Part shown: piece by piece, positions 31,884 through 33,786 of the stretch | Layout: each line of letters opens with the position of its first letter | How positions within the stretch are numbered: position 1 is the first letter of the stretch | DNA from: an uncultured Bacteroides sp. | GTDB lineage: Bacteria > Bacteroidota > Bacteroidia > Bacteroidales > Bacteroidaceae | Length of the DNA stretch: 33,947 nucleotides | Direction: 5' to 3' | NCBI GenBank assembly: GCA_947646015.1 | Contig: CANSEY010000038.1 | Coordinates: 1 to 33,947 of the forward strand | Translations under genes and position numbers: made by a program | The notes under the pieces: generated by a model | Databases searched by the model: none | Seen by the model: only the letters and a program-made list of their open reading frames with translations | Told to the model about the DNA's origin: nothing

Positions 31884-31900
31884 ATATAAAATAACTAGTG

Positions 31901-32857
31901 ATGCAAATAATGAATAAAAATGGATTTAGCCGATGTGGGGAACTATACATCGGCCTTTTACGAAAAGAAGGTCGTTTTTCTACGGCACATGTCTATCAAA
32001 ATGCTCTTTTCTCTTTTAATAAATTTTGTGGTAATGCCAGTGTATCTTTCAGGCAAGTCACTCGTGACCGATTGCGTCGTTACGGGGAACATCTGTATGA
32101 TTCGGGCTTAAAACCGAATACGGTATCAACGTATATGCGTATGCTTCGCAGTATCTATAACCGTGGGGTAGAGTTGGGTAGTGCGCCCTATGTACATGGT
32201 CTGTTCCGTGATGTGTATACAGGAGTGGATATCCGTCAGAAAAGGGCTCTTCCGGTGAGTGAACTCCGACGGCTTCTTTACGAAGATCCCAAGACGGATT
32301 GTTTGCGGCGCACACAATCGATTGCTGCTTTGATGTTTCAATTCTGTGGGATGTCTTTTGCCGATTTGGCTCATTTGGAAAAGTCGGCTTTAGATTGTAA
32401 TGTGCTCCGATATAATCGAATTAAAACCAGAACTCCAATGAGTGTGGAAGTTTTGGATACAGCTAAGGAAATGATGAATCAGCTTCGCAATTCCCAGTCA
32501 TCGCGTCCGGGTTGCCCCGATTACCTTTTCAGTATCCTTTCCGGTGATAAGAAACGTAAGGATGAACGTGCTTATCGTGAATATCAGTCTGCACTTCGCC
32601 GGTTTAATAATCATTTGAAAAGTTTGGCGAGGGCTTTGCACCTGACCTCTCCGGTAACTTCTTACACGATTCGCCATTCTTGGGCAACTACTGCCAAGTT
32701 CCGTGGAGTTCCAATTGAAATGATCAGTGAATCTTTAGGGCATAAGTCTATAAAGACGACACAAATTTATCTGAAGGGGTTTGAGTTGAAAGAGCGTACA
32801 GAGGTAAATCGTAAGAATTTGCATTACGTGAAGACTTGCCCTTTAGGTCGAATTTGA
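31901..32857 (+). CDS. Tyrosine recombinase, likely invertase of the adjacent promoter switch
   Basis: From ATG 31901 the protein has 318 residues (numbers below count a GTG one codon earlier). An N-terminal SAM-like domain (about 12-105, with STAHVYQNALFSFNKFCG) precedes the catalytic domain. Visible catalytic residues are Lys176 (NRIKTRTP), Arg259 (SYTIRHSW), His282 (SLGHKS) and the nucleophile Tyr291 (TTQIYLK). The box I site reads FQFCGMSFADL, without the usual arginine; Bacteroides relatives commonly read RGMS here. The gene ends 36 bp before the left inverted repeat of the promoter segment. Recombinases in this place flip capsule promoters in Bacteroides, so this is the prime candidate. 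Confidence 0.88.
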   Translation: MQIMNKNGFSRCGELYIGLLRKEGRFSTAHVYQNALFSFNKFCGNASVSFRQVTRDRLRRYGEHLYDSGLKPNTVSTYMRMLRSIYNRGVELGSAPYVHGLFRDVYTGVDIRQKRALPVSELRRLLYEDPKTDCLRRTQSIAALMFQFCGMSFADLAHLEKSALDCNVLRYNRIKTRTPMSVEVLDTAKEMMNQLRNSQSSRPGCPDYLFSILSGDKKRKDERAYREYQSALRRFNNHLKSLARALHLTSPVTSYTIRHSWATTAKFRGVPIEMISESLGHKSIKTTQIYLKGFELKERTEVNRKNLHYVKTCPLGRI

Positions 32858-32892
32858 ATGGTTAAAAATTTGATAATCAGCATTGATGCTGG

Positions 32893-32915
32893 TGTGTTAC
32901 TTCTTAGGTAACGGA
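32893..32915 (+). repeat. Left crossover site of the invertible promoter
   Basis: GTTACTTCTTAGGTAACGGA at 32896-32915 is perfectly inverted at 33165-33184. It is built as arms GTTAC and GTAAC around the 7-bp spacer TTCTTAG (32901-32907). The outer arm (TGTGTTAC) is less like its partner (GTAACGGA) than in the right site. Confidence 0.9.
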
Positions 32916-33164
32916 TTTAAATTTGACGCAAAGATAGACAAAAACACATGTATTAAACAAATAAAAACCTACTTTTTTTTCGATTTAACCCTGAATTTGA
33001 AAAAAAATGTATCTGAACATGAAAAAGGCCTATTTTCATGCTTAGGAATTTATATGCCCAATTTTCCTAAGAATCTCTACTTTCTCTAAAGCCAAGATGC
33101 TCTCAACCCTCATTAGACGGTACTTTTCGACTTTTTCCTCCCGATTTATTATGAAGTGTACTTT
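32916..33164. other. Invertible promoter segment (249 bp), OFF orientation
   Basis: This segment lies between the two inverted crossover sites, downstream of the recombinase and upstream of upxY. It is A/T-rich and has one clear Bacteroides promoter, on the minus strand. There is no comparable TAnnTTTG element on the plus strand near upxY. A short open frame that spans it has no coding look. Confidence 0.85.
32928..32961 (-). promoter_or_regulatory. Switchable promoter, now facing away from upxY
   Basis: Minus-strand TTTG (32958-32961), 21 bp, TATCTTTGC (32928-32936). As sequenced it transcribes leftward into the 3' end of the recombinase gene. After inversion the -7 element would sit at 33144-33152 on the plus strand, about 55 bp before the upxY ATG. 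Confidence 0.8.
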
Positions 33165-33187
33165 TCCGTTACCTAAGAAGTAACGGA
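33165..33187 (-). repeat. Right crossover site of the invertible promoter
   Basis: The plus strand has TCCGTTAC (33165-33172), spacer CTAAGAA (33173-33179) and GTAACGGA (33180-33187): perfect 8-bp inverted arms around 7 bp. Positions 33165-33184 are the exact inverse of the left site. Confidence 0.9.
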
Positions 33188-33207
33188 AAAACATGGGGTA
33201 AAAAAGT

Positions 33208-33786
33208 ATGATTTTAACAAAAGAGAAATCACTAAATGCTGGGCCTATTTATGGGACAGGGGAAGGCGTAGCACACTCAAAACGCTGGTATGTTGCATTA
33301 GTTCGTATGCATCATGAAAAGAAGGTTTCCGAGTATTTGAACAAGGTGGGGATTGAGAATTTTGTACCTGTTCAGAAGGAAATCCATCAATGGAGTGATC
33401 GCCGTAAATTAGTTGAATCCGTTCTTCTTCCGATGATGGTTTTTGTACACGCTGATCCGAAAGAACGTATGGAAGTCCTGAACTTTACTACTGTGAGCCG
33501 TTATATGGTGATGCGCGGTGAGAGCAGTCCTGCTGTTATTCCTGACGACCAGATGGCACGTTTCCGTTTCATGCTTGATTATTCGGATGAAACAGTCTGT
33601 ATGAATAGCTCCCCTTTGGCACGTGGTGAGAAAGTTCAAGTAATTAAAGGACCTCTGCAGGGGCTTGTGGGTGAGCTTGTCAATGTAGATGGTAAAAGTA
33701 AGATTGCTGTTCGACTGAACATGCTTGGTTGCGCCTGCGTAGACATGCCGATTGGCTATGTTGAGCCTATAGGTGAAAAAAACTAA
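33208..33786 (+). CDS. upxY: UpxY-family capsule transcription antiterminator
   Basis: The 192-residue NusG-like protein has an NGN domain (about 26-125: KRWYVALVRMHHEKKVSEYLNKVGIENFVPVQ, with HQWSDRRKLVESVLLPMMVFV) and a C-terminal KOW motif (about 138-165: GEKVQVIKGPLQGLVGELVNVDGKSKIAVRL). UpxY proteins open Bacteroides capsular polysaccharide operons and prevent early termination in the leader of their own operon. It follows the invertible segment directly and has no fixed promoter of its own in the 20 bp after the right repeat. upxZ follows 7 bp after the stop. The polysaccharide genes lie beyond the window. Confidence 0.95.
   Translation: MILTKEKSLNAGPIYGTGEGVAHSKRWYVALVRMHHEKKVSEYLNKVGIENFVPVQKEIHQWSDRRKLVESVLLPMMVFVHADPKERMEVLNFTTVSRYMVMRGESSPAVIPDDQMARFRFMLDYSDETVCMNSSPLARGEKVQVIKGPLQGLVGELVNVDGKSKIAVRLNMLGCACVDMPIGYVEPIGEKN

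Follow-up and report, generated by a model that had tools for sequence, protein, structure and literature searches.

A probable phase-variable capsule promoter switch beside a tyrosine recombinase gene in an uncultured Bacteroides

The stretch of 33,947 nucleotides from an uncultured Bacteroides sp. analyzed here (the window) very probably carries a phase-variable capsule switch, at which a local recombinase inverts a promoter segment and of which the sequenced copy is in the OFF orientation (Table 1). The initial annotation had proposed a capsule promoter switched by inversion before upxY; because the expected anatomy is all present, this reading was right in substance. It is also backed by the inversion published for the same 20-bp repeat in B. 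xylanisolvens (PMC12118408, accessible part).

Table 1. Features of the predicted capsule switch and their positions in the window.
Feature	Position	Strand	Family match
Tyrosine recombinase gene (DNA invertase), 319 aa, ends 38 bp before left site	31898..32857	+	PF00589, PF13102
Left recombination site, GTTAC-TTCTTAG-GTAAC + GGA	32896..32915	+	
Predicted invertible segment, 249 bp, OFF orientation	32916..33164	.	
Promoter TTTG-N21-TATCTTTG, aimed at recombinase gene, away from upxY	32929..32961	-	
Conserved dyad CATGAAA-N9-TTTCATG, near segment middle, upstream of promoter	33018..33040	.	
Right recombination site, identical 20 bp inverted	33165..33184	-	
23-nt stretch from right site to upxY start, mostly conserved ATGGGGTAAAAA	33185..33207	+	
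upxY, capsule transcription antiterminator, 192 aa	33208..33786	+	NF033644
DNA-level conserved block GGGACAGGGGAAGGCGTAGCACAC inside upxY, codons 16-23	33253..33276	+	
upxZ, 5' part, cut by contig end	33794..33947	+	PF06603 (9e-11 on 51 aa)

Anatomy of the locus

The perfect 20-bp inverted repeats recognized in the initial annotation have arms that are 100% complementary and enclose 249 nt; with both sites included, the stretch from 32896 to 33184 measures 289 bp. Allowing up to three mismatches, a search of the window found no copies of the repeat beyond the two arms, and 0 in 100 shuffles. At a spacing of 100-400 bp, it is the longest perfect inverted repeat in the window, whereas 60 first-order Markov simulations gave a maximum of 15 bp. 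A chance origin of the repeats was ruled out by these shuffles and simulations.

Each repeat contains a recombinase-type palindrome (GTTAC-N7-GTAAC) with the 7-bp middle TTCTTAG. In the case of tyrosine recombinases, two opposed copies of an asymmetric middle favor inversion over deletion; since TTCTTAG is asymmetric, its two opposed copies should favor inversion also at this locus. The palindrome and its form in Parabacteroides distasonis have already been published, as has the exact 20-bp repeat, which lies before capsule operons of B. xylanisolvens with inversion reported (PMC12118408). The 10-bp repeat GTTCGTTTAA of the B. intestinalis-type capsule inverton (PMC12118408, accessible part) is absent from both strands of the whole window.

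The segment is adjoined by a gene for a tyrosine-type recombinase with the domains Phage_integrase (PF00589; 8.1e-14) and Phage_int_SAM_5 (PF13102; 4.9e-16); the initial annotation had mentioned neither a local recombinase nor the palindromic nature of the repeat and its presence at several loci. A site is located at most 900 bp 3' of the recombinase relative in 43 of 45 loci if an exact core is demanded, and in 44 of 45 if one arm change is allowed. The recombinase would bind both palindromic sites and exchange strands inside their identical middles, which would invert the 249-bp segment. It is unlikely, if conceivable, that the segment is inverted wholly or partly by the recombinase of another locus, as might be suspected from the presence of the same 17-bp core at four loci of this genome (C5, C20, one on C32, and C38, which is the window itself). 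Each of these loci, however, has its own recombinase gene beside it, and that of the window is open over all 319 aa; cross-action is compatible with this arrangement.

The recombinase has Ser and Tyr aligned at the first catalytic arginine and the HxxR histidine of tyrosine recombinases. The SYT[LIFA]RH form occurs in 45 of 48 recombinase relatives, and a pattern check of the first position confirmed Ser in 19 of the 48, with Pro in 5 and no pattern match in 24. IntDOT, too, reportedly lacks this first catalytic arginine. Two relatives (L024:4001-4954 and L026:4001-4933) have an in-frame stop in the recombinase frame of the range taken, so these copies may be broken. No close recombinase relative was confirmed among viral contigs, where none of 10 pattern matches stood up. 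Matches were present in 8 of 72,556 plasmid records; among them, a record of B. finegoldii (NZ_OY725914.1, 18266-20141) comprises the whole stretch from recombinase via segment to upxY (100% of the query, 73.0% identity).

The switch region has a single match to the pattern TTTG-N16-24-TAnnTTTG when both strands are scanned (32961-32929), and this promoter is conserved in the segment alignment. The whole window contains 10 matches, compared with 1.9 expected. The one strong minus-strand promoter of the initial annotation is thus retained as a unique consensus match, although its span (32928-32961) had been drawn one base too wide. Its direction, away from upxY in the sequenced copy, was also read correctly: the match is on the minus strand, and there is none on the plus strand of the segment. 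No promoters of the sigma-70 type were found in 32700-33400, and Rfam gave no match there at gathering thresholds. The window has just two Rfam matches at these thresholds; they lie far from the switch and represent FopS small RNA genes on the minus strand (RF04319; 1459-1525 and 2500-2566; 77.8 bits each), both closely preceded by a match to the TTTG/TAnnTTTG promoter.

In the OFF orientation, the sole consensus promoter would fire toward the 3' end of the recombinase gene, with none before upxY, upxZ, and the capsule genes, which would probably leave upxY silent. Inversion of 32916-33164 would bring the -7 box to face upxY at the position that had been predicted, albeit by simple arithmetic at 33144-33151 on the plus strand rather than 33144-33152; the box would then precede the right repeat by 13 bp and the upxY start (33208) by 56 bp. 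Transcription in the flipped form is expected to start near 33155-33160 and would yield a short mRNA leader in which the right site forms a hairpin with an 8-bp stem; its first 70 nt are predicted to fold at -10.3 kcal/mol and to include a second, imperfect stem. UpxY would then assist the polymerase in traversing the capsule operon.

Read-through from the recombinase gene into upxY is possible in the OFF state; it could be limited by a weak plus-strand terminator candidate at 32876-32893, the only one found in the scan (0.4 expected by shuffling). On the minus strand, the scan found no terminator site between the promoter and the recombinase gene; this stretch folds into two small hairpins (-8.8 kcal/mol), better than 199 of 200 shuffles. 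The OFF-state promoter may give rise to a putative antisense RNA that dampens the recombinase. A narrow literature search found no published account of such antisense control of a recombinase by an OFF promoter; invertases near invertons are generally placed where the promoter cannot drive them (PMC11892184, accessible part).

The match of UpxY to NF033644 (174.9 bits; 1.2e-51) is well above the cut-off of 100 bits. The operon order (upxY, upxZ, capsule genes) agrees with that of capsule operons: the window ends within upxZ, and the capsule genes further on are known from a relative (L014) alone, in which a complete upxZ (PF06603, 145.7 bits) is followed by one polysaccharide gene, encoding a biosynthesis protein of 641 aa (PF02719, 397.9 bits). 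Among the 28 UpxY loci taken, 27 have 20-26 nt between the right site and upxY; the 43 nt of the remaining locus (L045) arise because its right site was placed by assumed length.

Related loci and the orientation of their segments

A scan of genome contigs with the recombinase yielded 41 loci, 40 of them labeled Bacteroides. Together with the window and the loci on C20, C5, and one on C32 of the same genome, they form the 45 loci searched for sites with an exact core, among which 38 have two cores, 5 have one, and 2 have none. Addition of the pairs on C12, C17, and C27 brings the set to 48 loci, 41 of which have two exact cores. The 7-bp middle is identical within all 46 readable pairs; those of L033 (contig end) and L049 (masked) are unreadable. 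Nine of the 41 exact pairs have a middle other than TTCTTAG, which is still equal within each pair. L018, L031, L045, L052, and L053 differ by one arm base in one or both sites, with the same middle on both sides. In L051 (Parabacteroides distasonis), which is a distant relative, the two arms have changed in a matching way (GCTAC-TTGGGGA-GTAGC).

The genome itself contains at least eight pairs that follow one pattern (C5, C12, C17, C20, C27, two on C32, and C38), and a control pattern gave none. In all eight, the sites are opposed and their middles identical, with four kinds of middle among them: TTCTTAG at C5, C20, one on C32, and C38; TTTCTAG at C12; TTCGTAG at C17; and TTTGTAG at C27 and the second pair on C32. 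The four loci that share one middle could in principle recombine with each other. A recombinase gene is located beside seven of the eight pairs (37-83% identity among each other); none was seen at the second pair on C32, which lies near a contig end. The pair on C5 precedes YjbH-type genes, that on C17 precedes Mfa-type fimbrial genes, and those on C12, C27, and both on C32 are followed by ORFs of 827-956 aa, which look like surface lipoproteins by their lipoprotein-like starts.

The best direct evidence of inversion comes from a sibling locus in two genomes. The segment of C20 is 96.9% identical to that of L019 when flipped but only 48.5% when unflipped, whereas the flanks are collinear and in the same orientation (left 1000 bp, 93%; right 32 bp, 100%). 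C20 is in the ON state, opposite to the window locus; its upxY is deduced from L019, because the contig ends 32 bp past the core of the right site.

A promoter scan of 49 loci (41 retrieved and 8 of the same genome) assigned 40 to OFF and 4 to ON (L034, L046, C20, and, with a weaker match, C17); 4 were undecided (L047, C12, and both on C32) and 1 was unreadable (L033). The OFF call of L049 is based on a partly masked stretch. When the 38 segments bounded by two exact sites were aligned, 35 had the orientation of the window and 3 were flipped (L034, L046, and C20); the segments of L047, L051, and C32 carry little weight, as their alignment is weak. That the repeats represent a terminator or RNA hairpin unrelated to inversion, with a fixed promoter for upxY, is extremely improbable. 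The right repeat indeed folds as RNA in the present orientation, with an 11-bp stem at -12.9 kcal/mol that is equaled by 5 of 200 shuffles, but the segment has no TTTG/TAnnTTTG promoter on its plus strand, homologous segments occur in both orientations, and the comparison of C20 with L019 disfavors a fixed arrangement.

The locus of the window was found in three genomes (window, L014, and L015) and is OFF in each of them; neither the scan of genome contigs nor a search of the genus yielded an ON copy. L014 is almost identical to the window (left 1000 bp, 100%; segment, 99.2%; right 700 bp, 99.3%). The uniform orientation would also be expected if the element were inactive and frozen in the OFF state, which is very unlikely, considering that both sites are perfect, that the recombinase frame is open, and that the sites of L015 have remained identical although its left flank (88%) and segment (88.4%) have diverged. 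In the genus search, 32 of 149 genomes matched, including that of the window; the best two others (G059 and G001) have the window orientation and might correspond to the L014 and L015 genomes. Four further genomes (G044, G053, G082, and G091), in which right flank and segment lie on opposite strands in places, look like the ON state by this alignment pattern and may overlap with the loci named above. Since the assembly of the window is 74.7% complete and comprises 100 contigs, the orientation seen is at best the majority state.

Conserved elements and possible exchange between loci

Comparison of the segments revealed a conserved third element, the dyad near the middle of the segment, which represents a testable addition. 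It matches at 12 or more of 14 positions in 29 of 38 segments and falls below this value in L042, L043, L046, L047, L048, L050, L051, L054, and C32; in shuffled segments, the mean is 9.5-10.3 and the highest value 13. Within the genome, the exact pattern occurs only at C20 and C38 (C5 matches at 13 of 14 positions), and a control pattern does not occur at all.

A codon alignment of 28 loci with readable UpxY (14 once near-copies were removed) showed a synonymous identity of upxY of 0.83 in alignment codons 11-20, compared with 0.67 for the preceding ten codons, 0.68 for the following ten, and 0.37-0.63 later in the gene. The block GGGACAGGGGAAGGCGTAGCACAC is a candidate recognition element of UpxY, as this conservation at the DNA level suggests, and presumably resembles the ops element of RfaH. 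UpxY reportedly recognizes paused polymerase (work by Saba et al.). Three more upxY genes were detected in the genome; the stretches read there lack the core of the block (GCGTAGC), and the 5 kb fetched around these genes contain no inversion-type site. A described UpxY site was not found in the literature searched, which included the accessible part of PMC7593976.

Several surface loci of one genome have the same type of site, which means that the switches may trade parts. Three species have two such loci apiece; there, the segments within a genome are 0.980-0.990 identical, compared with 0.951-0.975 for orthologues between species, whereas the recombinases of the same genome share an identity of just 0.75-0.76. 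No such excess is seen in the 600 bp to the right of the site, where identity is 0.914-0.944 within a genome and 0.923-0.950 for orthologues. Of 14 same-genome pairs, 6 change in identity no more than 40 bp from the right site, including a weak case (L015/L017), and the other 8 have no such shift; examples are L016/L022, which goes from 0.70 to 0.95, and L032/L039, which goes from 0.64 to 1.00. Breakpoints at the right site as a general rule were rejected: among 23 UpxY loci, the best breakpoint falls within 25 bp of the right site in a minority of 15 of 253 pairs, and some tabulated breakpoints only mark a contig end (e.g., L029/L035). This count leaves out L014 (a near-copy of the window), L045, L047, L050, L054, and C20.

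Near-identical segments or upxY genes next to diverged neighbors were observed in L016/L022, L029/L040, L030/L036, L032/L037, L032/L039, and C32. Such similarity within one genome may reflect concerted evolution or exchange. The two segments on C32 are 95.9% identical, although their flanks are not (49% on the ORF side, 81% on the other); because the middles of their sites differ, ordinary gene conversion fits better than recombinase exchange. More generally, gene conversion by homologous recombination would explain the sharing at least as well as exchange by recombinases. The identical UpxY proteins of two B. xylanisolvens capsule loci (PMC12118408, accessible part) would fit either process. 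We put forward only tentatively, as a rather doubtful proposition, that switches trade promoter segments and upxY between loci, by which two capsules would share one antiterminator and the one-capsule-per-cell rule would be rewired. Comparison makes the exchange of segments and antiterminator genes among loci with such sites a testable possibility.

Comparison with known switches

Capsule switching influences how gut Bacteroides resist phages and make contact with the host, and the locus of the window provides one more clean case, comprising a defined site, a likely enzyme, a promoter, and a target. The element belongs to a described class of switches and uses a published repeat sequence. Its closest counterparts are the capsule (CPS) loci of B. 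xylanisolvens and B. thetaiotaomicron in the accessible part of PMC12118408: the repeats of CPS1, 3, 4, and 5 of B. xylanisolvens are identical to the 20 bp of the window, and those of CPS1, 3, 5, and 6 of B. thetaiotaomicron are near-identical palindromic repeats. The invertible or potentially invertible stretches of these CPS loci measure 289-290 bp, compared with 289 bp here, and are likewise adjoined by an invertase or integrase; UpxY is named for CPS3, 4, and 5. CPS1 of B. xylanisolvens combines the repeat with high-confidence inversion and an upstream integrase. The published loci differ in that they belong to another species and another capsule operon, and inversion is reported there for CPS1 only.

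The Mpi-dependent capsule promoters of B. fragilis also invert before capsule operons and have UpxY and UpxZ as a second layer (PMC4747536, PMC12632263, accessible parts). However, Mpi is a single global serine recombinase, whereas the recombinase beside the site of the window is of the tyrosine type, which speaks against inversion of the Mpi type. A tyrosine recombinase beside an invertible surface polysaccharide promoter, able to act also on a distant promoter, is described for a Bacteroides species; by the accessible account, that system concerns loci for extracellular polysaccharide and outer membrane proteins and does not comprise a capsule operon with upxY. The BT1927 switch of B. thetaiotaomicron is another invertible promoter of a surface component; in rich medium, about one cell in 1,000 has it ON (PMC12548429, accessible part). 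It controls an S-layer protein, whereas the switch of the window controls, in all likelihood, a capsule, but there is a further likeness in the large ORFs that follow the sites on C12, C27, and C32 of the same genome.
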